Assembly (NCBI GenBank): GCA_009869945.1
Contig: WIXG01000792.1
Span: 1 to 21,320, forward strand
Direction: 5' to 3'
Length of the DNA stretch: 21,320 nt
DNA from: Mesaphorura yosii
Taxonomy: Eukaryota; Arthropoda; Collembola; Poduromorpha; Tullbergiidae
The notes beneath the pieces are model-generated. The model worked only from the letters and a program-made list of their open reading frames with translations. It had not been told where the DNA came from and made no database searches. Made by a program: the position numbers and the translations under genes. Positions 1,558-20,605 of the stretch are shown here, in pieces. Numbering within the stretch: position 1 is the first letter of the stretch; every line of letters starts with the position of its first letter.

Positions 1558-3531
1558 GTTACGACCAACCTCACTCGTAGTCCTTGTATGCGTCATTGTC
1601 CCTGCTTCCCTTTGTTCCTTATGGTCACCGATCTTGTGACCATTTGTCCAGCCAGGAAGGGAATGCCCAGGCTGGTCTGCTTTGACATGTTGTCCAGCTA
1701 TGGCTTAAGCTTGACACGAGTCATGCTTCATGCACAATTCATACGCGACTAATAATGAAAGGCTTGACCAAAGAAAATGCAGAAGAAATTTCGGGAGCAT
1801 GCATAACGCCAGTTTATTTTATCTTTACTTTTTACTTTAGTTTAGTTAAAGGTCATAAACTACTTAATGAATTACTGATTCCTTGCCTCATACAATGTGT
1901 TAACAGCTTCCTCTACTCTTGTCTCCTGATCATGAACGCCCGCGCAGCAGCTGCCACAGCGTTATCAAACTTTGCTTGGTTAAATACCTTCGTAGGGTAA
2001 TCCGTGTATTATGAGGTGCTATTAACTCCATGAAAACGTGTCCTGTGTTTAATACGTACGTTCACAATGTCTATAAAAGAGTTCCGGGTTTGATGCACCA
2101 CAGTTTAACGAGCCCGTGCTTCGTCCAAAGAGCGCCAGCATCCGGCAACCGGACCTCCGCGGTTTGCATTGCAAATAGTTTCGCTGTGGCTGCTCGAAGA
2201 TTGCTGTCGGTTAGCTCCAAGAAATGGGCATACGCTTGGTCAAGTTTCTGGATCAACACCTGCATGAAGGGTTCTTGGTATTGGCCGACCCCTATCCCAC
2301 GAGCTGCTTGGAGTACCATAATGCTGGACTCCTTCAGGTCTGCATGTCGTGGCGTGAAGGTCTCTGGTGCCAATCCAGTACTATTGAATGACTTGTTCCA
2401 TGCCAGCTCGATACACCGCCTCCGCCTTTTCAATGTTTTGTTTCCATGGGATTTCTGCGGTAGCTTGGAGCACAGATTTCAATTCAGGAATTCGAGCGGG
2501 ATCAGTGTACAAGTCCGCCCAGACCTTAACGTACTTCTTTAACTTCTCGCCCGTAATTTCTTCGTCCCGATACGCTTCAAATTGGCCTGTACAGCTGTTG
2601 GTGACACAACAAATGCAATAACATGTTTTATAAATTCAGGATCTCAATTGTGCTGGTCAGTATTATCTATCACTGCTACAGCTGATCCTGGATGCGGAGG
2701 AGCGACGAAGCTGATGTCCTTGAAGCAAGAACGGACTCTCTCTCGTGTGCACTTGGACTCTTGTGCTGATCCTTCGAGGTCATCAAAATAATATGACTTC
2801 AAGTTCTCATGGACACTATTCTCGTCTTCTGGGCATGCACGGTCGTCATGAACCCCGTATCCATGTTCTTGTGTAGTCACGGATTAGTAACATGAATTTC
2901 TGAAAGGCAGCGTCTTCATTATCAGCTCCTAATTTCGCGCACTCGATAAATGTATGCAAAAACTGAAACGTATCCCCACCAACACCTTGAACATTAAACA
3001 GTTGACCGACGAGAGCAAAGTACTGACTGCGAATAGAAGGGCATCGCCTTGCGTGTCCGTTTGTAAATCATGGAGGCCTTGGACGTCAAGGAGCAAGACA
3101 GCAACCTCCCGTGTGCTCCCAACTTGGGTTGGAAATACATCGGACTAGATTTGGATCCCGGCAGTCACGCGTTGTTTTCCGCCACGCCAGACGAACACTT
3201 TAGGTAAAGTTTGGCTGATCCAATCGTCTGGATGAGTGTGCCCGAATTTGAGGAACTTAGGAACTGGTTGAGCGTAAAAGACTTGCCCTCACGCATCTTC
3301 CCATTGATGGAGTAAATTGCCAGCGGACGATTCCCGACGAGGGTCAGAATCCGGAGTAAAGCTTGAATAAAGATTTGGACACTATTTCAAGTGACGAGTT
3401 TCATGACGGTGACGGTATTTGTGATTCCGGTTGGCCATTATGCGTGTCACTTGCCAGTCAAACGCCCCAGTGACCCGAATTAAGGAGACCAAAAGCGACT
3501 CCAAAATCGGCAATTAAGTAAACAAAATTTA

Positions 3532-4129: not shown

Positions 4130-4373
4130 CTGCAAGTTTGTTAAGCCGATGTCCTCGGAGCACCACAACCAAATCTGCAAGCTCCTGCTCTCCATTAGCC
4201 TTCCATTTGTTTAACGAATCAAGAACAGCATCTCCACTTACGGTTCCATTCTGTTGGAGTGCATCTTTTATATTCGGTTTTTCCAGATCAGTTTCCGCAA
4301 TATGATCCACTATCATCGACCATTTGTCTATTGCAGTTGGATCTCTCACGACGAGGTCACGAATTGGGACCAT
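4130..4373 (-). other. Intact Death-domain exon of the pseudogene
   Basis: From the ATG at 4373, 81 codons read IRDLVVRDPTAIDKW...VLDSLNKWKANG...LNKLAG, the same Death-domain subfamily as the exons at 5865 and 9981. There is no lesion. The donor CAG/GTATGT is intact, as is the upstream acceptor TTTTAG at 4386-4385. Reading on into the intron meets a stop after two codons (83 residues in all). The exon could therefore still yield a Death-domain-only peptide although the rest of the gene is dead. Confidence 0.75.
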
Positions 4374-5864: not shown

Positions 5865-8087
5865 ATGAATATGGATACGGTATCAATTTGTGACCTGGTT
5901 ATCAATGACCCTGTGGCCATTCAAAGATGGAACAGAGTAGTAGATCGGCTAGTCAAATCTCCACTTGAAAACACGATGATCAAGAAACTAATGGCAACTT
6001 CGAATTCTGCCTCGTTTGAGCAAGCTGTAATTAATTCATTGAACATTTGGAGGGAGGAGGGAAGTAGAGACATTTCGCATTTGGCCACGATACTGACAGA
6101 ACTTGATTTGAATTCACTGGCAGGTAATTAATAATAACATGACTGTGTAACCGAAAGCTGAGCTACTTGGGCCTACACAGGAGAAATCTTACGGCAGCGG
6201 GGATGCGCTAGGGGAGTATGGTTTGAAGTTAGGGAGCCTGCGTACAATTTCACTGGACGCAGAGACGAACTGAAAACGCTTTATGCAAAGGCCATATGCT
6301 GCGATGGGATTTCGAACATTATCTGTATCAGAGGCCTTGGAGGAGTTGGCAAATCTTCCCTGGTTCAACAATACATCTTCACATACAGAAGTTTGTATGA
6401 TAATGTGATCTGGATTAACGCGGATTCTGTGGAATCAATACAGAATTCATTCATCAGACTAGCAAAATACCTTCAAATGGATATTGATGGGTTGTCAAGT
6501 GAGAGGCTTGCGTCCAACTTGTTCGAGGTGCTGAGACCCAAGAAATGTTTGTTTGTATATGACAATATAAGACAGCGAGCGCATTTTAGCCAGTTTAAAC
6601 CGACGAATATCAGCTCAGATCGCATACGACCTATTGTACTAGTGACAACTCGGAAGACTAACTTAAAGCTGCTTCATAAGTACCAAATCGATTTAGACGT
6701 TTTAAGTATGGAAGATGCAATAGAATTTACAATGATGCAGCTACCAGCAATCACAAGCACAAGTGCTAGAGAATTAGCTACCAAACTACAACAATTCCCC
6801 CTGGCACTGCAGCAAGCCGTTTCATTCATACAGAACAAGTATATTGAAGACAACGAGTGCATATCTAAGTATTTAACTGAATTCGACAACCCTGAGAAGA
6901 ATGTACTAGATTATGTCGAGGAGAAAGAGGAGGGAGAACGTACCAGTGACCTAAACCCCAATCAACCGCATTCAATGACAACCTCCACTGTGTGGGAAGT
7001 GACTTTGAAAGAAATCGAAGGAATTAAGGGTGGCGAATCAGCATTGAAGTGCATAAGAATACTTTCCTACCTTAATCCTGAGAACATTAGCAGGGATTTC
7101 TTGTCTATCCTTTCTTCTAGTTTCGAAAATGAGTCAGAGATGAGCCTACATCTACTGCACAGATTTTCAATGATCAGTGTAAACTCTCAGAAAGTAAAAA
7201 TTCATCGACTGGTCCAACATGTGATAAGGCAAAGAATGAGTTCAAAACAAAGAAAAGAATTAATGGGCTTCATTCAACTTTTACTAGAACAAGAACTGAA
7301 CAAGCTTGAGTTCTCTGAGTTCGTAAGTGAGTGTATGTCACACGGATTGCATTTATTCACATTTCAGTTGAAGTATGCTGATGATTTGATGAAAAACAAA
7401 TTTAGTTATTACTCCCGGCTCTGTTTCTACCTGATGGTGAATGAAAACTATTTGGACGCCCAATCACTAGCTCACCACTGTATTCAAATATACCAGCAGA
7501 TTGACCGAGATGAATGCGAAAGCACACTTGATATGAAATGGAGATTGGCTAGTGCACTATACTGCCAGGGCGACCTGCAAGGTGCACAGGCAATCATTCA
7601 ACCAATTATAAAAATCTGTAAGTCTAAGCTAGGGGCCGACCATCGGTTAACTATGGACATCCTTGTGCTAATGGCCGTTATCCAATCGGGAATGGGAAAT
7701 TATCTATCTGCACTAGCAAACTATGACCAAGTCATTCCACTATTCGAAAAGCTTTACGCAGACAACAAGAACGTATCATTTCTAGATTGTAAGCAAGGCA
7801 AAGCATTTGCACTGTGGAAGACAGGCAATCCAGACGATGCTATAAACCTGCTGCAGGATGCACATGAGGAATTGGTTGCTCTGTTTGGATGTGAAGACTT
7901 GGATGCACTGCAAGTAAAACAAGGAATTGCTGAAATCCTTCATCAAAAGGGTGAGCTCAAGAAAGCACTAAATGAGTACACGGATGTATACCTGGAGATT
8001 GAAAAAGTCCGCGGGGATAAACACGAGGAAACAATCGCTTTGAAACAGAAAATTGATGAGATAATTTATGAAATATCTAATTATTAA
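5865..8087 (+). CDS. Death domain / NB-ARC / TPR protein (Apaf-1/NLR-like STAND ATPase)
   Basis: Two exons, 5865-6123 and 6181-8087, joined across a 57-bp phase-1 intron, give 721 residues. Residues 1-86 are a Death-fold domain (DLVINDPVAIQRW...NSLAG). Exon 2 continues in frame through FTGRRDEL (110-117) and the P-loop GLGGVGKSS (138-146). Next come a Walker B-like LFVYDN (210-215), the TTR sensor (242-244) and FPLAL (292-296), which together define NB-ARC. A winged-helix-like stretch with HRLVQ (428) follows. From about 492 to the end are kinesin-light-chain-type TPRs (repeated LG..H, G....A). Known relatives are cytosolic sensors that bind ATP or ADP, open on ligand binding and assemble through the N-terminal domain. 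The acid after the Walker B Asp is Asn (D214-N215), unlike the usual DD. The GTPase gene follows in the same direction. The start is the first in-frame ATG. The ligand is unknown. Confidence 0.88.
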
Positions 8088-8112
8088 TTATATTAACCTA
8101 TTTCTGTACTTA

Positions 8113-8118
8113 AATAAA
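8113..8118 (+). promoter_or_regulatory. Poly(A) signal AATAAA of the NB-ARC gene
   Basis: A canonical AATAAA 26 bases after the stop codon of the Death domain/NB-ARC/TPR gene, followed by TG- and T-rich sequence. Confidence 0.7.
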
Positions 8119-9072
8119 ACGTATGCATGGCATGATGCGTGAGAAATATTCAACAAAATACATTATCATCGTGTACATTTGTTCTCATTTTTACTCATTT
8201 ATGTCGTGCACATTCATGCTTCGTCATACTTGGTTCTCGTTACAGGCTGCAACATGTACTGTGTGTAAATCAGAAGACGACACATAGCAAATTTGTTTAA
8301 GCTGTATTCACACTATCAGCGAAAACATTCTGTTAAAAATTAAGCACCGACTTTGCAAAATTGGTTCTGATTTTGGTGGCAAAAAGGTCAGGTTGCTATA
8401 GAGAAAATAATTCCTGTGTCGTCTTCTCCTTTACACACAGTATTTTTTCGGTTAAGCTAGGTACACAGCTCGTGCTTTTCCACCGTGGAATCGCACCTGT
8501 GGAAATGAGGTTGGGAGATAATTGCATGAACTGTTCACCTAGGAAAATACAGTATGAATATTCTTTTCACTGCCACCTTCGCTTAGCTGTACGCAGCTAA
8601 ATTTCTCAGTGAATTTTGTAGTCCATTTTTGAAAAATTCATAATTTTTTTTTCTTTTTGACACTCCTGAAGTAAATCGTTAGTTTCATTAGAGTATCAAG
8701 TTTAGTTTAGTAAAGTATAGGTCAGTTAAATATACAAAAGCATGTAGATGATCTCTGCAAGCCAAATCGTGCCAGTTGCTGACCAACGAAACCGAAGCGA
8801 ACAGTCTTCTTGCGACCATCAAACGATGTGCTCGTTTAATAATCGCCAGCATCATGAAATGATTTAACTCAATGTTTTCTCATTCCCCACAATTATTTAC
8901 TCCCGAGATAATTTTTAGAACAGCTCACGATGCAGATTACACTTAAAAACTAGTAGTGCCTACTAAAATTGTCAGAACTAATCATTTTAAACTATTCTAA
9001 TGTTTAGAAATCGATCATACAAAACAAATCTTAAGAATTTTCTACGTTCACCATCTTGGAATAATGGGTCCG
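8119..9072. other. No gene seen between the two Death-domain genes
   Basis: AT-rich spacer with short chance frames only. It lies between the NB-ARC gene and the fold-back repeat upstream of the GTPase gene. I see no exon, RNA gene or clear tandem repeat. Confidence 0.4.
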
Positions 9073-9092
9073 ATTTCACGCAAAGGATGATA

Positions 9093-9449
9093 TCAGTTAA
9101 GGCACTGTTTCTGGCCAAACGCAGACTACTGATGAGTCATATATCAATCGAAAGCTTATGACACAAGGATAAAAAAATTGGGTTGAAATAGTTGAAAATC
9201 ATGGTTTGACATTTTTCTCAGAATTTACACCAAAAAGCAAGTAATTTTTGTTTCGAGACTTCTTTTCGATGACTGCTCGTTTTGGAGATTTTGGGGGTCA
9301 AAGTGCTGAACTTTGACAAGCCACTGTGGACTCAGGCAGTGGAATTTCAATGTGAAATATATTTCGTTGGAATCCTTGTGTCATAAGCTTTCGATTGATA
9401 TATGACTCATCAGTAGTCTGCGTTTGGCGAGAAACAGTGCCTTAACCGA
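9093..9449. repeat. Fold-back element with 77-bp inverted arms
   Basis: The left arm (9093-9169) and right arm (9373-9449) are inverted copies differing at only two of 77 positions, around a 203-bp centre. Weaker outer similarity extends the arms to about 9073 and 9469 (TTTCAC...AAAGGA on both sides). There is no coding capacity. A MITE or fold-back transposon is likely. The RNA would form a long hairpin. I could not identify a target-site duplication with confidence. Confidence 0.85.
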
Positions 9450-9461
9450 CACCCTCCTTTC

Positions 9462-9583
9462 TGGGTGAAAAGAATGCTTTTTTCACAGTGAAAAATAATC
9501 AAGGAATTTCACGGGTGAAAGGTTGGAATAGCGTACTGCAAAATGGAAATTCCCGCGGAATTTTCACACACCCAGTTTTCACC
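9462..9583. repeat. Cluster of TTTCAC/GTGAAA motifs
   Basis: Just outside the right arm of the fold-back element are at least five copies of TTTCAC or its complement, some paired as short palindromes: GGGTGAAA at 9463-9470, TTTTTCACAGTGAAAAA around 9479-9495, TTTCACGGGTGAAA at 9507-9520, TTTTCAC at 9561-9567 and TTTTCACC at 9576-9583. They may be subterminal repeats of the same element. They also lie about 0.4 kb upstream of the GTPase gene, so a regulatory role cannot be excluded. Confidence 0.5.
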
Positions 9584-9980
9584 TTGAAAAAACGAACTGC
9601 GTACCAGCCTTACCTCTACTTTATGTCAAAGGAAAATGTAAACGACGAAGCCCTCTATGCGTGTATGAGCAAATATTGTATATGAACCAACACATGCTTA
9701 TCATTGTGCACGCTTATCAGAGAAAGTTTCTTCAAACACATAGTACGCCAGGTCGACTCTCATCCATGAGCATGTTATAAAATCTGTACCTTCGTAGAGC
9801 TGGTATGGTGTGATTAAAGCAAGAGTACGACGTAGAATAACATTGTTGTCTAAAATGGCGCAAATCAATTACCCCACATTGACCAGACCTAGCTCCAAAG
9901 ATCACGGTGATTAACAAGTTATTAATTAAAAAAGGTTATATAATTTTTGCTTCCAAATTTCAGACTTGGAATCTCTAAAT

Positions 9981-12051
9981 ATGGACAAAATTCGAGATCT
10001 CGTCCTGGAGGACCCAGTTGCCCGACATAAATGGGCCATGGTTGTAGATAACCTTATCCTAAGTGTTGTCGATACACATAGAATCAAGCATCTATTAAAA
10101 TCCAGTCCCGCAGAAGCGGTGCTTCAATCTTTGCTAATATGGAAAGCGTACGGCCACACTAGTGCAGACTTACTCCGAGTTCTGAGGCGATATAACTTGT
10201 CTACACTAGCAGGTTAGCATTTCACAACTCGTTTTTGCAAACATTTCAATTGGAGTATCACAAAGATGTCACAAGAATTTCCGTCTATGGGTCTTAATCT
10301 TCAACTTTATGTTACAGACGAAATTAGTTCAGCTCTACTTCATTACAATGGAAGTGCGATACCCATCGTCGAATTAGGATCGGGAAAGACGGTTCGAATT
10401 AACTTGCAAGTATTGAATAATATCTTGGACCTTGTTGGCAATCGAAAACTGGCTATTTATTCAATCAACGGGAAAACACGCTCCGGGAAATCGTTCATGC
10501 TTTGTCAATTCATGAAGTACCTCAAATTTGGCAATACACATCCGAATGATTGGATTAGTCAGAAGCTATCTGAAGAATTTTCTTGGCATAGTGGAATGGC
10601 ACGGGTCACATCTGGCCTCCAATTATGGTCTGAGATATTTCTTGTACAAGATGGCGAGTGTGAAACAGCAGTTCTGCTCATGGACGTTCAAGGATTTTGG
10701 GACTTTCAAACTGAAACGCGGGGCGATGCAATTCTTTTTGCATTCAGTACCTTGCTTTCCTCTGTAAACATCTTTAATGTGAATAATGCTAGTGCGGACA
10801 CGTTTCAATTTCTGCACGCTTTCTTAGAGTGTGCCAAACTTTCCATTCCCATTGGTACTGATACTGAAAGGTAGGTGGATTTTTTACAGTTACACATGAA
10901 ACATATGTGATTCGTAATTTACGGGTATGTCCTATTTCGGCAGGGAAGGCGCGGCTTTCCAGAAGCTGGTGCTTCTATTGCGAGACTTTGTATCAGATAG
11001 AGAATATGGATTTGGACTTCATGATGACCGGGGTTGCCCAGAGAACGAAGAAGGCTTACATGCTAACCTTAAGAACTATTATTTCGACTACCTTGACCCA
11101 TCAATACTGTCGTCGGAGGCTATACGAGATAGACAAGCCATTAGTTCATGCTACAGGGACCTGAGTGTCGTTGCACTTCCTCATCCAGGACTAAGATTAG
11201 TGAAGGATGATAGTGACCCGCTTAATTGGGAACCAAGATTCAAGGCTCACGTTGTAGAATTTGTGGAAAGTATCCTTGGAACTGCCTCGGTATATGAAAA
11301 TGTGAAGCGGGTTGGAAACGAGGAAATCACTGGGTACAAGCTGAAAGATTTTGTCCAGGCCTGGGCGGACCTGTACACTAATTCAGACCAAATTCCGGAA
11401 ATCAAATCTATAATACAAGCCACCAATGAAATACAAGGAAGACAAACTGTCGCGAAGTATTTGAGCATTTACAGAAATGGCATTGAACAAGTTATTCGTG
11501 AGAATCCGGATGGATCGATTCCTTATTCGTTAACATCGAAGCATGAAACCTTGAAAGCGTCGTGTCTACAAACATTCCAGGCAACTCGTTTGGTGGGAGG
11601 AGAATTCTACCAAAAGCCATTCATCGAACTCTTGACGAAAGAAATTGACCATGCCTACGAATACTTTCTCGAGTTGAACCAGAAGAATCTTGCCACAGCA
11701 GCCAGAGCTGCTGAAGGAGACGCAAGGCGAGAAGCAGCTAAACAACTTTCCATAGAAACGGCCCAGTTGTCATTGGATGAGGCTAGGCGAGCTCTGGACG
11801 CGGCAAGGACGCGATTGACAGCACTTCATCAAAATCGGGAATCATTCTATAATGTTACATACATAAGAACTAAACACGCGACACGTGTATTTGGATTTAA
11901 GGGCAGTCCATATTATACAACCGAAGCTGCAAAAGTATTTGATCACGCCAGATTTGATCAAGCTGTAGCCATGGCCAAGGAAGATGTCCAAGGTGGTGAA
12001 TCGAGAGTACAACAAGCTATCAATGCATGGGAAGTTGCAAGAAATCAATAA
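9981..12051 (+). CDS. Death domain / atlastin-GBP-like GTPase fusion
   Basis: Three exons, 9981-10212, 10276-10870 and 10944-12051 (introns of 63 and 73 bp, phases 1 and 2), give 644 residues. Residues 1-77 are a Death domain (IRDLVLEDPVARHKW...LSTLA). The dynamin-superfamily GTPase follows: P-loop GKTRSGKS (143-150) with Arg146 where GBP1 R48 and atlastin R77 sit, switch Thr189 in VTSGLQLWSEIF, G3 DVQG (214-217), the G4-like LLRDF with RD at 289-290 (as in atlastin and GBPs), and PHPGL (355). A helical middle domain (about 425-520) follows. Atlastins next have two membrane segments. Here there is instead an Ala/Arg/Glu-rich coiled-coil-like stretch (about 525-575) and a soluble tail ending ARNQ, with no CaaX box. 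TTTCAG at 9958-9963 suggests a 5' untranslated exon upstream. The family hydrolyses GTP and oligomerises. A role in Death-fold signalling or host defence is my inference. Confidence 0.88.
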
Positions 12052-12260: not shown

Positions 12261-13740
12261 TTAACGGCTAAGCCTCGTCCTCCTCCGGCTCATCAGCCAT
12301 TCCATACTCCGGTCCCCGATCATGCTACCTTTCCCACACACTGAGTTGAGTTCGTCAAGAATCTCTTCCAATGTTTTTTGTATAGCATTGGGTACACAAA
12401 AGTACACGAACCCCGCCCCGAGCCCGCTACTGACCCCATACACTACGAATGACTAAACTCCTGCTGTTGAGGCGAATCGGGTGACGAGGAATGCATACAA
12501 GATGTGCCCTCCTGCGGGTAGCTCTGAAGTTACCCCTACGTTGCGATTTGGCATTAATTCGCTCGTCAGGATCAGGGCACCGGACCCGGCCCGACCTCAT
12601 AGGCTCCGATGAAGGTCAGCATGCTTAGGAGTGGTACCGAACCCCAGGCGGCTGTCTGAGCTTGCGGACCACTCAGAAACGTCAGAGCCATGACCACGCT
12701 GGCGGCAGCCAATCCGAATTCAGACCCCATCAGGAGCCGCTTTCGCCCCACTTGGTCTACAAGCAGAGCCCCGAAGCCGAGGAAGGCCAACATGAAGCAC
12801 CCTGAGACCACGGAGTACATGTGCGCACCCCCCGAAGTTGCCCCTGCCGCAAGAAACACGTCCACCATGTAGAACAGAAGAGGATTACGCCCTGAAAGCT
12901 GTTGGAATGCCATCAGAGCCGTGCAGGTTGCAATCAGGCCCCAAACGTTCTTTGGGCCCTTGTGGTGCTTAGCTGCAGCCGCGGTGCCCGCGAGGGAATC
13001 AAGAGTCGCAGTTAATTCAATCTCCACCTTGACGGGCGACTCAAATCCCCGAAGCCAACACAGCACAGCCTCTGCACCCTGATCCGCTTGGTGTATCCCC
13101 GCCTTCCGAGAAAACGAAGTGACTCCGGCACGGCGGGAGTCAGTGTCAGCCCCAGGAACGCGAAGGGGCAGAGGAGGGTCACGATGGAGAGCGTATACCA
13201 AGAGACAAAGGAGACCAACAGCAATGCAGAACAGGATTCCCACCACGACGGAGCCTTGCCCACAGTACGAAAGCATGCCCCAGCCCCAGACATCGGGGAC
13301 CGCGATCTCCGAGATGTAAATCTGACCCAAGAGGAGGAGCGACCCGAAACTGGCTCCCGTCAGTGTCCGCCCGATGTAAATCATACTCACATATGGGAAA
13401 ACTTCTGCAAGCACGAAGAACGACCAGCTGAGAAGGGAAATGACGGCGGAGGCGATCATGGTCGGGAGGCGACCTGCAAGGGGGATCAGGTCACCGATCC
13501 AAGCTTCTTGAGATGAGGTCGCGGAGTGTGGTCATTTTGAAGCTGGGTAGGGCAGTAGGCAGCGATTGTGCCTGCTGTGAAGAGGCCAGTTGATACTGTG
13601 GGCAAGGAAATGGAAAAAAATCAAGGATAGACGGGTGGAGATCCTTGCCTACGCACGCCCGCGTGCTTACCTGCAAGTGTGGATTAAAGTTGTCGGCGGT
13701 AGCTTAAGTCAGTAGTGAATTGGTCAAGAAGGTCTGACCA
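12261..13740 (-). pseudogene. Decayed MFS sugar transporter (GLUT/Tret1-like)
   Basis: The minus strand shows the parts of a 12-helix sugar porter, scattered over frames. In order: YRRQL followed by a stop; an intron at 13596-13670 with good GTAAG and CACAG borders; LFTAGTIAAY; EAWIGDLIPLAGR (shortened relative to the family); YIGRTLTGASFGS; then, in a second frame, PESLRFLGRRG; back in the first frame AVLCWLRG, FQQLSGRNPLLFYM, DQVGRKRLLM; GPGPVP; a lost base before ILTSELMPNRNVG; a TAG; and finally VYFCVPN..QKTLEEIL. There are at least four frame changes or deletions and at least two stops. The family moves hexoses or trehalose across the plasma membrane by facilitated diffusion. Assembly errors could explain one or two breaks, but not all of them, since neighbouring genes are clean. 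It converges with the GTPase gene. Confidence 0.82.
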
Positions 13741-13857
13741 TGGCCATGGCCAGCGATGACGGTCCATTATTGAAGGATACAGTTTTGAAATGAAGCAAGC
13801 ATGTCTGCGCGACTGTCCTGGTTGGAGTCCAGAGTTCAAATGAATGTCTCATTTGAG

Positions 13858-13971
13858 TAATTAACTTTATTCATTACACTAATTAAAGGATTGCTTCTTA
13901 ATTAATTATTAATTTGCCTCATTAATTCGTTGTAATTAATTAGTGTCGGTATTATTACCAATTAATTACCC
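13858..13971. repeat. TAATTA-rich block
   Basis: About seven TAATTA or ATTAATTA words occur in 114 bases between the transporter pseudogene and the GFAT fragment. This is the core site of many homeodomain proteins, but it is also what plain AT-rich sequence produces. No gene lies in 13741-14220 otherwise. Confidence 0.4.
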
Positions 13972-14225
13972 ATCAAAGCCCGCCTTTAATTCGGAATTCA
14001 ACATTAATGCTTAATTGCCAATTGCCCGACGCCATGCATACTCCCAGAATTCATCATCATCGATGTGACATGTCCAATGACTATGGTGGTGCCATTCGCA
14101 GAAAACGTAATGCATGACTTTTTTAAGCCATTTAATTGGAGTAAATAAATATTTGATCACCAACAAACGGACGTGATGCTCGGTTGCTCTTCTTCCACCA
14201 GCAGTGTGTGTTTAATACTACGTAC

Positions 14226-14473
14226 GAGGTGGGCGAAGGAGGCGGCTTCGAGCTGGGTCTCGTCTAGCGGGTCGGAGGGGTTGCGCTTCAGGTTAGGGTT
14301 GCGGTACCCCGCGTTGGGGTTCCCGTACGCCGTTGGCGCAGGCGCTCCGAGCTCGTTATGTAAATCCTGTTTCGCCCCTGGGCGCGGATGGTGGCCCGCC
14401 TTGGCGCCTGCGTCGTCGTAGGCTTCGGCGTAGTCGTGGAGGTGGAGCCTTCGGACGCGGAGGTGGTATTCTT
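14226..14473 (-). CDS. Candidate exon of unknown protein
   Basis: One minus-strand frame is open from the GFAT fragment's 3' side and reads DYAEAYDDAGAKAG...YGNPNAGYRNPNLKRNPSDP...ASFAHLV. The composition is GC-rich and protein-like, and it ends at a good splice donor (CTC/GTACGT, exon end 14226). The 5' border is a guess (AAAAG/AAG near 14474). I do not recognise the family. Another frame of the same DNA is Thr/Pro-rich and could be the real one. It lies immediately downstream of the GFAT fragment, in a different frame. Confidence 0.25.
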
Positions 14474-14481
14474 CTTTTGGG

Positions 14482-14904
<423 letters not shown>

Positions 14905-14950
14905 TTAACGTTCGTTTTCTTTATTTACATGCAAGATGAAGTAGAATTTT

Positions 14951-14956
14951 TTTATT
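14951..14956 (-). promoter_or_regulatory. Poly(A) signal of the receptor gene
   Basis: AATAAA on the minus strand, 67 bases after the stop codon of the ionotropic-receptor-like gene, in an A-rich setting. Confidence 0.6.
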
Positions 14957-15023
14957 TCCAAACTAACTGCGTTAGATAAGCGAAACAATTCGTACAAATA
15001 GTTTTCTATCCCGTACTATCTAT

Positions 15024-17039
15024 CTATCGTTTCAAGATTGGACTACAAACTTTCTTAACCCTCGCTTTGTGCCTAAAGCCCCAAACCTTGCGGGCAAGCC
15101 CCGACGCGACCTCCGCCAAGAAGACACCCACGCCTCCGCCGATGAGGTACAGGTAGCAGACAAAAACGGTGCTCAGTCCCGTCCTGAAGGAGAGCGGGGC
15201 ATACTTGAAGAGCGTGCTGGACTCGGGGGCGACTTCCCGCCAAGTCCCGTCGATGTACAGCGAATCCCACAGTTTGTCAATCCCTCCCGCAAGAAGCCTG
15301 CTCACGTACTCCTGCAGGGCGCCCCGCAGGTGCCCGGAGAACTGCGCCGTCTCCCACATCGACACGTCAAAGACTTCATCGACGGCGGCGCAGTGAAGAC
15401 TCGCGTAGCGGACGTCGGAGTGAATTCGCTGCACGTCGAAGGCGACGAATTTCGCAATATCGAGCATCGTCCCGGTCCCGGCGTACTTTGCAATGCAGAA
15501 CGGGTCGGAAATGTTCCCGCATTCGAACCAAGGCAGGAAGAGGGCGTCAGTGAAGTGGATGCCCAGACGCTTGAAGTTGTACTCCATTCCATGCCCGTGA
15601 TACTCCTCCGCATCCGCGAGGAGCCGAAAGCCGTCTTGCTCGAACAGCTCCTTGTTTGTGGGGATAGTCCGTGGCTGAAGCGGGGCGAGGATGTCGGACG
15701 TGAAGTAGCCGATGTACGCCTGTTGTGGGAGGACGAGCAGGAAGAAGATGGCCCCTACCCGGCGCGGCCAACGGTGGCCGTACTGCAGAGGGATTGAGAT
15801 CAGGCTCCAGAGCACGTCGAGGGCGTACCACGGACTGCGGGCCAGTGCCCCCGCAGCGACGCCGAGCGCCAGGAGGCAGCCCCACGTGGCCACATCAAAG
15901 GGGCGGAGGAAGAAAGTCACGGGGGAGGGCTGGAGCGAGGCGGAGGTGCGGCAGTAGAGGTGTCGGTACTCGTTCACTATGAGGAGGACGAGGCTCGTGT
16001 GGGCCGTCGCCGACTCGGTGTCTCGGCTCACGCCGGACTTTGCACAGTGAAAGCAGACCCTCACCCGTGGCCCCGTTGGGAGCTCGAATCCGACGGAGCT
16101 CAGGTTGAATCGGGCGGAGATCATTCCGTTGAAGACGAGGAACAGGTTTCCAACCCGCCAGGAGAGCCTCATCCGTCCTTCGATGTCCGGCTCGTCGTCC
16201 GACCACCAATAATTCGTCTCCAGATTGTGCTTGTGGCGTTGACCGGCTGCCGCAGTCGCAGGGTTCAGGCGGGCGTGTGCGGCCCGCAGCAGCTCCACGC
16301 TGGGGAGCACGGCGCCAGCGATTGGTGGCTGCCAGTGCACGGTGCGCTGCATGCAGAAATAGCAGAGGACGCCCCAAATTGACCGTTCTCGCACCAGTCG
16401 CCTGACGGAGACGGCAACCACCGCCACGACGGGAGCCCGGTCCTGGAAAACGGTCGTCGCCTGCTTGAGCCAGTGCAGGTAACCTTCCGTGCTCTCCTGC
16501 GTGGCGCCTACGCTCTTGTTTGTGAGGAGGAGCCCCACGAAGAACACGACGCCGGTGCGGTCGGAGTACGCGAGCTGGCTTGCCTCGAGCACGGCCGAGA
16601 CCGGGATCCAATCGTCGAAGGCGACCGTTAGGTATGAAACGCAGGTCGTGCAGGATGAAAGGGATTCCTCTACGAGGGTCCGCGTCCGGGTGGTCGTGCC
16701 GTTGGCGTCGCGGGCCGCCGCTGTCGTTGCCAGCCCGCCGTCAGTCGAAATCACGATGGTGCCTCCGCCCGCGTTGTCGGCGTTGGCAGTGGCTGCGAAT
16801 ATCTGCTCTTCGGGCTCGACGTAGTCTGGCCGCCCGCCGACGTACTCCGCTGGGAGGCTATCGATCGCAAGCGTAAACTGCAGCACGCAGCGGGGAGGCG
16901 GCTGGAAGATCGGCAGTTTGTACGTGGCGAGAAGGGGCAGGCAGGCGGCGAGGAGAAGGAGCGTCAGCCCCAGCGTCGGCGCCGACGTTGGCGGCGGTGG
17001 CTGCAGGGCCCTGGGTCGGAAGAAGAGCGCGTTGTTCAT
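15024..17039 (-). CDS. Divergent ionotropic-receptor-like channel (iGluR/IR family)
   Basis: A single uninterrupted frame of 671 residues from the ATG at 17039. A hydrophobic stretch at 22-40 is a signal peptide or anchor. Residues 41-370 are a long extracellular region with Cys pairs (130/133, 329/332) and NxS/T sites. The receptor core follows the IR order: FFLRPFDVATW leading to M1 (384-402), a short pore-loop/M2 segment (405-420), M3 (426-446) running into YFTSDILAPLQPRTIPTNKELFEQDGF, a second ligand-binding half with the AGGIDKLW motif before M4, and M4 (620-645) with a basic tail. IRs are cation channels of sensory neurons in protostomes. The pore and ligand residues are strongly diverged, so the ligand cannot be predicted. 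The lack of introns is unusual beside its neighbours. GC-rich codons produce long shadow frames on the other strand. Confidence 0.8.
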   Translation of the reverse strand: MNNALFFRPRALQPPPPTSAPTLGLTLLLLAACLPLLATYKLPIFQPPPRCVLQFTLAIDSLPAEYVGGRPDYVEPEEQIFAATANADNAGGGTIVISTDGGLATTAAARDANGTTTRTRTLVEESLSSCTTCVSYLTVAFDDWIPVSAVLEASQLAYSDRTGVVFFVGLLLTNKSVGATQESTEGYLHWLKQATTVFQDRAPVVAVVAVSVRRLVRERSIWGVLCYFCMQRTVHWQPPIAGAVLPSVELLRAAHARLNPATAAAGQRHKHNLETNYWWSDDEPDIEGRMRLSWRVGNLFLVFNGMISARFNLSSVGFELPTGPRVRVCFHCAKSGVSRDTESATAHTSLVLLIVNEYRHLYCRTSASLQPSPVTFFLRPFDVATWGCLLALGVAAGALARSPWYALDVLWSLISIPLQYGHRWPRRVGAIFFLLVLPQQAYIGYFTSDILAPLQPRTIPTNKELFEQDGFRLLADAEEYHGHGMEYNFKRLGIHFTDALFLPWFECGNISDPFCIAKYAGTGTMLDIAKFVAFDVQRIHSDVRYASLHCAAVDEVFDVSMWETAQFSGHLRGALQEYVSRLLAGGIDKLWDSLYIDGTWREVAPESSTLFKYAPLSFRTGLSTVFVCYLYLIGGGVGVFLAEVASGLARKVWGFRHKARVKKVCSPILKR

Positions 17040-17322
17040 GGCGAATGAACTGGTAGGACAATGGCGAATGACAAGAGAAGGTCAGAGGGGAGAAGCAAAA
17101 ATACTGAAAATAGAAAAGTTGAGTGCAGCAGCAGCGGCAGCGTTGAATTGTTGATTCGGTGTTTGAATTGCAATTGCAGAATAATTGGTAAATTGGCGAA
17201 ATGGATTCATTAAGTAAACAGTTCAGTGCGTTAAGTACCTGGCCGCTCCTCCAGCTTAGAGCAGGCCATCGCAGCACTCAAATGCGAACCTGAATTATCC
17301 ACTTTACTACTTTACGTATTTG

Positions 17323-17601
17323 TTACTTGGTCTCACACGTTTCTAATGTGCTTGCCATTTGTTGAAAAATCGTTCCAGTTCCAACAATGCGATCGATCGC
17401 TCGTGGCATGGCGCCACCCAAGCACTTAATCCTGCCCACGGCCACCCAATTATTTACACACCCACCAAATGGAACCTCATTCTTCTTGGAATTGGAATCA
17501 CACTCTAGGCAGGCTTTATTACCACATTTCTTGAATAAGAATACAAAGCAGCAATGCCCAATGTGTATTACAATATTATTATTACAAATGTTTCTTATCA
17601 C
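17323..17601 (-). CDS. Unrecognised Cys-rich frame
   Basis: A minus-strand frame reads KKCGNKACLECDSNS...FGGCVNNWVAVGRIKCLGGAMPRAIDRIVG...LETCETK, with coding-like codons and CTTATTCAAG as a possible acceptor before it. I do not recognise it. It lies 3' of the small membrane-protein gene and overlaps that gene's apparent poly(A) signal (AATAAA, 17515-17520), so it may be untranslated sequence or an old exon fragment. Confidence 0.2.
   Translation of the reverse strand: MIRNICNNNIVIHIGHCCFVFLFKKCGNKACLECDSNSKKNEVPFGGCVNNWVAVGRIKCLGGAMPRAIDRIVGTGTIFQQMASTLETCETK
17515..17520 (-). promoter_or_regulatory. Possible poly(A) signal of the small membrane-protein gene
   Basis: AATAAA on the minus strand, 115 bases after the stop codon at 17635. 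It is the nearest canonical signal. Confidence 0.45.
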
Positions 17602-17634
17602 TTATGCTATGATGCAGCTGCAACACCAATTGGC

Positions 17635-18050
17635 TCAATCCCCTGCTGCTCCAAAGAGTTGCTTGCCCCTGTGGTTGAATGTGATGAAGTTTGGGCGGTA
17701 GACGAACGACTCGGGGGACTTGTTGGCCAGGTCCTGCGTCGCCTGGATCTCTTTGAAGGTCTTCGTGGAGGTGGCACCCCAAATCGCGACTGCGACGGCG
17801 ACGAGCACTGGAATCGTCATCTGTACAATGCAACAATATGTAAATTAGTTGTAGATGTAGCAGAATGAAGAACTGGGCTCGGGACAGGAAGCTTTCAATT
17901 CCTGGTTACAGCGAAATCGGGTTTCGGGTGGCCTACCTCCTTCTCTCGCCCACTGGCGCTGGTTCCGAATCCGAAGAAGATCCACCACATCAGGCAGGAG
18001 AGCGACAGGGAGAAGGCAGCCCAACTCATCGATCTTGTGCTCAATTCCAT
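17635..18050 (-). CDS. Small two-pass membrane protein, function unknown
   Basis: Two exons, 18050-17937 and 17820-17635, join in phase 0 across a 116-bp intron (GAG/GTAGGC ... TTGTACAG/ATG) to give 99 residues. The first hydrophobic segment (about 9-29) is AAFSLSLSCLMWWIFFGFG. The second (about 40-55) is IPVLVAVAVAIWG. A short Arg/Lys/Glu-rich loop (33-38) separates them, so a hairpin with both ends on one side is likely. The C-terminal 40 residues are polar (FKEIQATQDLANKSPESFVYRPNF). I do not recognise the family. Exon 2 alone also has an ATG as its first codon, so a shorter product is possible. The gene is divergent from BicD with about 500 bp between their start codons, so they may share a promoter region. 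Confidence 0.6.
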
Positions 18051-18552
18051 TGTAGCAATCGGCAATGATAACGACACGACTAGTAACCGGAAAATCGACG
18101 ATCAAATGCAAGAAGGCGGCAGGCTCGAGACTCCAGTCAGTCCAAATTCACCGATTTCCAATTTATTCGTCCAAGATCGAAGCGGCTGCGTTAAATCAGA
18201 CTCGATTATAAACTGCAATCGAGCTGGAACTGGAATTAATTGAACTACTGAATTAAATTGCAGATTTGTATTGAAAACCGAATGCGGCTGTGTCTGCGAG
18301 AGAACTGAATTCAGTGCGAATTCACCTCTTAGCAGCTCTCACATGATCTCCTCAAGCGAGGATGCCAATGCACGGCCGGGACAGAGCTCGAATATGAATC
18401 TCGAAAGATAAAAAATACAGTCCCGTCCCCAATTCAATATTCAACATGTTACACGTCAAAGCAGCTCCGGTGTCGATAAATTAATTCCGACCTACCCGAA
18501 TTGAGGGGAATTGACCAATTCCTACCCACACCACCGCGATCCAAGCCCAGCG
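18051..18552. promoter_or_regulatory. Divergent promoter region of the small membrane gene and BicD
   Basis: 502 bases between two outward-facing start codons, holding no other gene. Both 5' untranslated regions and core promoters should lie here. I see several AATT-containing words but no clear TATA box, so I place no transcription start. Confidence 0.5.
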
Positions 18553-20605
18553 ATGGACAATCAACACATGTCGACGTCACCGCAGGCGCTCCTCGCTGAA
18601 ATCGCCGGGCTCACGGCTCAGCTCGACGAAGCCCAGGCGGAGAAGGTACAAGCGGCCGAATACGGGATGGGGCTGCTGGAGGAGAATACGAGACTCAACG
18701 CACGCTGCAACGAGCTGAGCGAGGCGCACGAGACATTGCGGACCGAGCTGGAGGCTACGCGGACAACGCTGGGGCGTGTGTCCGAAGTGCAGCGAGTGAG
18801 CGAGGCCAGCGGAGTCCAGCACGAAGAGAAGCTGCTGTCCGAAAACACTCTCCTTCAGTCGACGTACCGTACTCAGGTTGGCGAGCTGGAGGCTGAGCTG
18901 AAGAGGGCTCGGCTGGAGGTGGAGCGACTGCAGCAGGAGAAGGAGCGACTCACTACAGGAGTCACGCAGCTGCAAGAAGACGCCGAGCGGAGCCAAAAGG
19001 AGCGGGCCGAGAGCCGGAGGGAGCTCAAGGAGCTGAAGTTACGTGAAGCCAGGCTCCTGAAAGACTGTAGCGAGCTGGAGGAGCTCAACTGTGACCTGCA
19101 GAAGCAAGTCTCCGTGCTCCGGGCGGCCCAAGTCGAGTTCGAGGCTACGAAACACGAAGTCGGTCGTCTTGCAGAGCTCGTGGGGGATTTGGAGAGGCAA
19201 GTCATGGAGCTGGGGGCGCTGAAGGCGATTGCGGAGCGGCAGGTACGAAGAAAGGCGCCAATTTTATTCAAACTCATATTTAAAACTGAGTTTAATCCCT
19301 GATTTTCAGCTGGAGGAAGCCCTCGAGGCCAGACAAGCGGAGCGCGAGGCCAAACTCGCGCTGAAGAAGGAGTTGGAGGCACGGGCCAACGCCGAATCAC
19401 TCGCAAGCCTCGCGGGGCTGGCCATTGGGCTACACGGCAGCGGTGGCGCAGACGACGCCTACGGCAACGCAGACTCGGGCCCGCCCAGCAGCCTATTCGA
19501 CGAAATCCACGGGGGTCGGATCGCGAAACTGGAGAAGGAGCTGGAAGCGGCGGAGCACCAGGCGCTCGCTCAGGCCGAGACCCTGAAGGCCCTTGAGGAG
19601 GCGCTTGGCAAGGAGCAAGCCGACGTGGTGCGGCTTAAGCAGCAGCTACAGCTTCAGGCAGGCGCCGGCGCCGCCGAGTGGAGCCAGACGAAAGAGAAGC
19701 TGGCGGCCGCCGAGGGCCGAGCGACGCACGTCGAGGCTGAGCTGGCTGAAGTGGAGAACTTGATCAATCAGTTGCATGACGCCGTGGAGGGGGCCCGAAT
19801 GGCACTCGGAGGCGTGAGCGACCTGCTGGGTGGCGTGTACTACCAGGCGTGCGGAGCGCAAGGGGTCACGCCGAAGAGGGTGCTGTTTGAGCATTCGAAG
19901 ACGAATGAAGAAGAGTCTCAGTCGATACCCAGCAGCCCATGCGGCGGCGGCGCGAAGACAAAGGCGACCGCCAGGCTCTTGCTGGCGTTGTTGAGGCGAG
20001 GAGGCGCTGTTGGCTGGCAGATCGAGACACTCGTCGATCAGGTGAAGGCCCTACAGGAAGTCGTCGGCGTGGGCGGCTCTTCGGCGGTGATCGCAGCGGC
20101 TGAGCTTCAGAAAGATGATACATCCGCGCCTGACGGCGCTGCCGTCGAAGAATCCCGGCGCCTCCGCTCGCTGCTGGAGCTTAAATCCGAGCAGACAGCA
20201 ACGCTCCGCTCCGTGCTGACCGCTAACAAGCTGAATGCGGAACGGACGCTCGACGGCCTGAAGCAAAAGTACGACAAGGAAAAGGCGCTCGTCACCGACA
20301 CAATGCAACGGCTCCGCACGGAGCTGCGGCTCCTGAAAGAAGACGCGGCCACCTTCTCGTCCCTCCGCGCCATGTTTGCGACCCGCTGCGAGGAGTACGC
20401 CGCCCAAGTCGAGGAGCTGAGCCGCCAGCTAGGCGCGAGCAACGACGAGAAGCGGACACTCAATCAGCTGCTGAAGCTCGCTGTGAAGCAGAAGCTCGAT
20501 CTGAATAAGAGGCTGGAGGTCATGGAACTCGAGCGCGACGCGGCGACGGCGAGCCTCACGCCAGTACGGAGGCATCCGGCGGGAAGGAGCGGGAATTTCA
20601 AATGA
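18553..20605 (+). CDS. BicD: Bicaudal-D dynein adaptor, short form
   Basis: Two exons, 18553-19242 and 19310-20605, join in phase 0 across a 67-bp intron (CAG/GTACGA ... TTTTCAG/CTG) to give 661 residues. BicD links dynein-dynactin to cargo such as Rab6 vesicles and, in flies, mRNA via Egalitarian. The N-terminal coiled coil carries the CC1 box AAEYGMGLLEE (34-44), which in the family binds dynein light intermediate chain. REARLLKDCSELEE and LQKQVSVLRAAQVEFE (about 164-198) are hallmark BicD sequence. The C-terminal cargo-binding coil contains KEDAATFSSLRAMFATRCEEY (from 573), nearly identical to known BicD proteins, then LNQLLKLAVKQKL. The total is short of the roughly 780-820 residues common in flies and mammals, the loss being in the middle coil. 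The start is the first in-frame ATG, with a second at codon 6. Confidence 0.93.

Follow-up and report, generated by a model that had tools for sequence, protein, structure and literature searches.

Two neighbouring genes on contig WIXG01000792.1 of the collembolan Mesaphorura yosii both open with a Death domain, which raises the question of whether a nucleotide-binding sensor and a large GTPase are paired there in one innate-immune module, as a sequence-only reading of this DNA had proposed. The 21,320 nucleotides analysed (the window) hold gene 1, which joins a Death domain to an NB-ARC ATPase with tetratricopeptide repeats (TPRs), and gene 2, which joins a Death domain to an atlastin/GBP-like GTPase. 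The answer is a wider one: a single family of Death exons, whose phase-1 boundary is constant, is found ahead of numerous NB-ARC-TPR ATPases and of a small number of other proteins, GBP/atlastin GTPases among them. We put it at about an even chance that both genes belong to a large Death network built by exon shuffling, through which effectors with a Death tag could be recruited by NB-ARC sensors. The two genes are laid out as follows.

5865..6123, plus strand: gene 1 exon 1, Death domain, 259 nucleotides, with the phase-1 donor GCAG/GTAATT at its end
6124..6180, plus strand: gene 1 intron, 57 nucleotides, GT-AG, phase 1
6181..8087, plus strand: gene 1 exon 2, with the NB-ARC ATPase, the winged-helix-like DUF7779, the TPR array and the stop codon
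6312..6839, plus strand: NB-ARC match inside gene 1, Walker A GLGGVGKSS
7035..7250, plus strand: Pfam DUF7779 match inside gene 1, residues 372-443
9981..10212, plus strand: gene 2 exon 1, Death domain, with the phase-1 donor GCAG/GTTAGC at its end
10318..10870, plus strand: gene 2 exon 2, first part of the atlastin/GBP GTPase domain (P-loop, DxQG)
10944..12051, plus strand: gene 2 exon 3, remaining GTPase domain (RD motif), helical middle domain and charged helical tail

The description of two intact genes in tandem holds in coordinates and architectures, and both reading frames are open. Read by splice rules on the plus strand of the window, gene 1 encodes a product of 721 amino acids, in which Pfam detects NB-ARC (1.8e-12), TPR_12 (5.5e-20) and DUF7779 (8.2e-8). 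The NB-ARC match reaches 47.5 bits (cut-off 23.5) and the DUF7779 match 32.8 bits (cut-off 27), which places the protein among the STAND/NB-ARC proteins. Altogether, 22 Pfam families match gene 1 at an expectation value (E) <=1, with TPRs present and no LRR. The predicted structure of the gene 1 body, with a predicted local distance difference test score of 85.6, has helical repeats in the model, and a fold search returned a solved STAND-TPR protein at the top (2.4e-11, template modelling score 0.37), followed by Apaf-1 (5.7e-9, 0.51), both template modelling scores being taken over the model. By sequence, no match of gene 1 to solved structures was found at E <=0.001. Residues 22-623 align with the bacterial FxSxx_TPR family (NF040586) at 6.3e-67, under the curated cut-off of that family, and PADLOC returned no match for the gene 1 body and only weak matches for locus L001. 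The call of a STAND NB-ARC/TPR protein is thus upheld by Pfam and fold, whereas its wording as a member of the class of Apaf-1 and NLRs was loose, since the repeats are TPRs and not LRR or WD repeats, and the body aligns over its full length with the bacterial family. Gene 1 is best called a bacterial/fungal-style NB-ARC-TPR protein carrying an animal Death domain. Its reading as an Apaf-1 or NLR proper was set aside, no CARD, LRR or WD having been found. Pfam Death does not recognise its exon 1; the gene 2 Death exon as query finds the gene 1 Death exon at 2.3e-10 in a search over selected loci, and the latter is included in the 36-row family alignment.

The gene 2 product has 630 amino acids, encoded by three open exons with consistent splice phases, and its frame is open 5' of the ATG to a possible acceptor AG at about 9963, so that an extra 5' exon is possible. 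Pfam detects GBP (PF02263) at 5.5e-27 and Death (PF00531) at 1.1e-5, the latter with 25.9 bits against a gathering score of 22.6, which makes it a member of PF00531. The closest solved relatives are atlastins, with atlastin-1 as the best (1.9e-47), and these matches bear out the earlier call of an atlastin/GBP-like large GTPase. In the alignment with atlastin-1, gene 2 retains GxxRxGKS (the P-loop and the Arg next to it), the switch Thr, DxQG and RD, the motifs known from GBP/atlastin GTPases. The transmembrane hairpin of atlastins proper was looked for with a crude hydropathy scan without an atlastin control, in which no 19-residue window of gene 2 exceeded 1.6 (maximum 1.43). Besides, the helical domain of classical GBPs (GBP_C) scored 15.8 bits in gene 2, under the gathering score of 24.3.

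The family counts that carry the main finding refer to this single genome of 93 Mb, in which 66 Chitin_bind_4 matches were counted; such an expansion is a mark of arthropods. One family Death exon as query gave 76 matches at E <=0.1 and 70 at E <=0.001, and the gene 1 Death exon gave 63 at E <=0.1; 74 of the 76 matches have no internal stop. The two window genes had been assigned Death domains of one subfamily, and a shared family is indeed seen, but the statement is true only at the level of this family of about 70 matches. PF00531 matches 8 of 14 family rows at E <=1. The predicted fold of a paralogue in the family alignment is a Death domain, with the six-helix bundle of the Death superfamily, and a gap separates the Death-superfamily matches from unrelated folds. 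The alignment and the tree comprise 36 of 39 segments (two fragments and L042:1372-1620 were omitted, and three segments come from an overlapping source).

Architectures were classed by coordinates for the 76 exons and by DNA for the 30 best matches (L049-L078). By coordinates (same strand, <=2.5 kb), an NB-ARC match lies downstream of 25 of the 76 Death exons, at <=336 nucleotides in 24 of these 25, and a GBP match lies downstream of three, namely the two copies in the window and one on contig C566. Seen from the other side, a same-strand Death exon lies <=2.5 kb upstream of 26 of 52 NB-ARC stretches, where uniform placement expects about 0.001 each, a chance value that is too lenient because Death genes cluster. 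The GBP places number 11, built from 15 matches, with the exons on C21 and on C221 merged. By DNA, 16 of the 30 Death exons lead to NB-ARC, one to GBP and 13 to other sequence. A local profile finds NB-ARC at L071 and L075, which are absent from the Pfam list, so the unassigned class hides more NB-ARC genes. Other downstream partners include a protein kinase in a single open frame with a Death domain detected by the family profile (L077, contig C711, 518-2008; Pkinase 4.5e-30), a vWA domain after the Death exon of L056 (2.8e-29), and, at L050 and L063, coils related to GBP-HSP70 proteins. Since the Death exon also stands ahead of such other candidate effectors, the two-gene module is too small a frame.

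Several observations were made beside these classes. On contig C554 (L046:2387-7000), a GBP GTPase and HSP70 (6.9e-157) occupy a single frame that stays open over at least 1538 residues; this was the only place at which the combination was tested with Pfam, and similar GBP frames on C468 (L045) and C464 (L048) have HSP70-like sequence nearby by eye only. On C468, about 4.6 kb separate a Death-coil gene from a GBP match. At L053 (1468-2010) and L074 (1477-2073), about 100 residues are followed by a Death domain and then by the end of the frame; Pfam found no second domain in either, and these frames are possible adaptors, with a layout that to us recalls FADD. On contig C800, an NB-ARC match (15837-16445) and a caspase match (18848-19432), the latter interrupted by one TAA, are separated by about 2.4 kb and have opposite orientations.

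The boundary of the Death exon is constant. All 19 split loci of the Death-NB-ARC or Death-GBP type have a donor GT at one position and in one phase; they include close paralogues and are hence not all independent. A phase-matched acceptor was found in 17 of the 19 (the misses being the window pseudogene and L033), and this count is weaker evidence because several AGs often fit. In three further loci, Death and NB-ARC lie within one open frame. Splicing was examined at the loci leading to NB-ARC or GBP, a set to which L056 does not belong. The worry had been raised that the Death exons might not be spliced to the downstream exons; as far as DNA can tell, the donors and phases of the paralogues fit their joining.

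Evidence on whether the adjacent pair is special is mixed, with the C468 neighbourhood above and the TPR piece on C566 described below counting in favour. Against it, the tree does not join the Death domains of genes 1 and 2. Of the 35 Death relatives of gene 1, gene 2 is the 12th closest; of the 35 relatives of gene 2, the nearest is L050 (53%) and gene 1 comes 31st. Three architecture labels need 11 changes on the Death tree, a number equally low in 6 of 200 shuffles, and the labels are thus mildly clustered. The tree does group the Death exons belonging to the two broken GBP copies described below (96/87), which indicates some link between architecture and Death type. The proposed module of a sensor and a GTPase therefore keeps part of its support, in that both genes belong to the same Death family with an equal phase-1 boundary and both architectures recur, and loses the rest, as a matched pair finds no support and the clustering is general. 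The idea of a matched pair was set aside in view of the tree and of the Death identity of the two genes. That identity, 37% and at the 32.5th percentile of 630 family pairs, also counts against a shared Death network, together with four further points: the Death tree leaves 24 of its 33 inner branches without resolution; by coordinates, 48 of the 76 Death exons fall to neither NB-ARC nor GBP; the other 26 of the 52 NB-ARC stretches have no upstream Death exon; and of the three Death-GBP loci, two are or appear to be broken, which may leave the GTPase arm marginal.

The genome-wide placement of the Death tag on many sensors and on few possible effectors suggests a possible plug-and-play immune network. 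In such a network, the TPR array would sense a ligand, upon which the NB-ARC module would exchange nucleotide and oligomerise, and the clustered sensor Death domains could then nucleate a Death assembly to which effectors with a Death tag are drawn in trans. Among these effectors would be gene 2, a large GTPase concentrated via its Death domain, and its GTP-driven dimerisation might lead to action on a membrane or pathogen surface, or to cell death. Recruitment would probably be many-to-many over the family and not specific to the adjacent pair. For genes 1 and 2 we infer Death-Death binding, activation of the GTPase and an immune role. The more far-reaching proposal, that this is an arthropod inflammasome-like system in which a shuffled Death exon is the common plug between dozens of NB-ARC-TPR sensors and interchangeable GBP, kinase or vWA effectors, is put forward tentatively, and we hold it to be rather less probable than not.

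How the Death exon may have spread can be followed at two loci, L056 (Death-vWA, contig C1070) and L059 (Death-NB-ARC, contig C1011).

L056:1489-2003 and L059:1222-1746: common Death-exon stretch, 85% DNA identity over 529 bases

The common stretch takes in the entire Death exon, 14 intron bases and 266-276 bases upstream, and nothing aligns beyond it at E <=1e-10. Since the Death domains of the two loci are also sisters in the tree (100/96), the Death exon with its upstream DNA has been copied between an NB-ARC and a vWA locus, in either direction, and the upstream DNA copied with it may be a promoter. This copy is also what would be expected if the Death exon were hitchhiking, that is, if it spread with its upstream DNA mainly as a regulatory-plus-first-exon cassette, with genes 1 and 2 independent of each other and the Death domain aiding GTPase self-assembly only. 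The location of 20 of the 76 Death exons within 6 kb of another fits such spread as well, as does the lack of a matched-pair signal between genes 1 and 2, whose Death domains lie apart in the tree. However, the family alignment has one invariant Leu, with a Trp, a Lys and three more Leu nearly so, while its rows are only about 40% identical, and this conservation, together with the scarcity of internal stops, would be expected if the domain were retained for its function; a further point against hitchhiking is that the two broken GBP copies have Death exons that group together. We consider it unlikely, though to be taken seriously.

The order of events assumed for the Death network could also be reversed, with the GTPase as the sensor or platform that coats a pathogen or a damaged membrane through GTP-driven assembly, in the manner of vertebrate GBPs, and with its Death clusters seeding NB-ARC proteins or Death-only adaptors. 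Vertebrate GBPs have been linked to inflammasome activation (PMC9005921, PMC4932187), and frames that stop soon after the Death domain (L053, L074 and L057) would offer possible adaptors. No transmembrane-like stretch was seen in gene 2 by the crude hydropathy test, however, and the 25 Death-NB-ARC copies as compared with three Death-GBP copies would fit NB-ARC as the diversified sensor. We regard the reverse order as improbable.

The other Death-GBP copies bear on the GTPase arm of the Death network. The third copy in the window consists of two parts.

4131..4373, minus strand: open Death exon of the third copy, with the donor position as in the other copies
1875..3419, minus strand: GBP-like remains of the third copy, in several frames with stops

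Its GTPase part (3419-1875) can be aligned only in four overlapping pieces; they lie in three frames and contain 6, 4, 0 and 1 stops, some of which may be intronic, and a TAG lies within the GBP profile match at 3001-3198. The broken third member of the earlier account is thus recognised in an open Death exon and GTPase remains split over three frames, and it is best read as a pseudogene sharing the gene 2 architecture. Contig C566 holds the only Death-GBP locus found outside the window. Its GTPase frame shifts right after DxQG, as judged by eye and from overlapping profile matches, and by eye it also lacks a stretch found in gene 2. The helical middle region at this locus (L047:1015-2361) appears tandemly repeated, with overlapping matches to gene 2 and the repeat seen by eye. 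As both copies look broken, gene 2 is the sole intact-looking Death-GBP gene found. About 2.7 kb off on C566, on the opposite strand, lies a degenerate TPR piece with 34% identity to the sensor paralogue L005 over 120 residues (E-values refer to a search space of 3.5 kb). Its resemblance to the sensor family means that the neighbourhood of sensor and GTPase may not be unique to the window; no NB-ARC match was found on contig C566, so the piece could also belong to another TPR gene. Least probable of all is that Death-GBP is a short-lived fusion under loss and gene 2 its last intact copy with little present function, which the stops in the third copy and the frame shift on C566 favour, but against which stand the open frame, consistent phases and kept GTPase motifs of gene 2, and the birth-and-death turnover that GBPs in general undergo (PMC9005921).

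The remainder of the window holds sequence of other kinds.

9082..9460, no strand assigned: inverted-repeat element between genes 1 and 2, with arms of 89 nucleotides that are 94% complementary

This element has 84 matching pieces in the genome and is probably a small mobile element. Positions 12572-20605 hold a sugar transporter, a SIS-domain protein (GFAT-like by eye), Bicaudal-D and a frame of 685 amino acids without a Pfam match, which is ionotropic receptor-like by eye.

A 2024 survey described arthropod NLRs as having no N-terminal effector domain, from which it would follow that arthropods may have no inflammasomes (PMC11508797), and a shrimp NLRC has been described since (PMC12370184). 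Neither a Death-GBP protein nor an arthropod Death-NB-ARC expansion was found among the titles and abstract beginnings listed for the open-licence literature, and in the main text of a paper on chimeras from horizontal gene transfer in arthropods (PMC13389597) the terms death, NB-ARC, tetratricopeptide and guanylate are absent. The unusual points are the Death-GBP architecture and the arthropod Death-NB-ARC repertoire; the underlying principle is already known. If the Death network is real, its approximately 25 Death-NB-ARC loci and its Death-tagged GTPase, kinase and vWA genes would alter the picture of arthropod NLRs for at least one lineage, and it would be a compact system for asking whether an exon-shuffled adaptor wires sensors to effectors in trans, with an evolutionary step made visible by the Death exon common to L056 and L059. 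If the anatomy alone holds, it would still be a clear animal case of adaptor exon shuffling onto STAND genes.

Among known systems, the bacterial NB-ARC-TPR proteins of the FxSxx_TPR family are matched end to end by the gene 1 body, which also matches STAND-TPR and Apaf-1 folds. Apaf-1 and CED-4 have an N-terminal CARD; gene 1, unlike them, has a Death domain at this end, and TPRs replace the WD repeats or LRRs. Gene 2 resembles the atlastin/GBP GTPases, as its GTPase and middle domains align with atlastin-1 over about 400 residues, and differs from atlastins in that no membrane hairpin was seen by the scan above and in its added Death domain and charged helical tail. The silkworm BmAtlastin-n has been counted among these large GTPases (PMC9005921). 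In zebrafish, entry of Gbp4 into the ASC speck depends on its CARD (PMC4932187). Like gene 2, Gbp4 is a GBP-type GTPase bearing a Death-superfamily domain, which in Gbp4 places it in a signalling speck. The CARD of Gbp4 is C-terminal and the protein is interferon-inducible, whereas the Death domain of gene 2 is N-terminal, has its own exon and stands beside an NB-ARC-TPR gene. Adjacent NLR and effector genes of fungi such as NWD2/HET-S carry a common assembly motif (PMC5485727), and genes 1 and 2 are similar in being adjacent and in having an assembly element common to sensor and candidate effector; their element is a Death fold instead of an amyloid motif, and the fungal motifs match closely while the two Death domains do not. 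The broadest parallel is the effector-associated domain principle described for bacterial STAND conflict systems and metazoan Death-superfamily networks (Kaur et al. 2021, PMC8195603), which reports few or no TRADD-N domains in arthropods and, in the part available, shows no Death-GBP protein. The case described here differs in its metazoan-type Death domain, in its arthropod genome and in its exons with a fixed phase-1 boundary. It agrees with that principle in having a small helical adaptor of which a single genome holds many copies, some attached to STAND NTPases and others to candidate effectors encoded separately.

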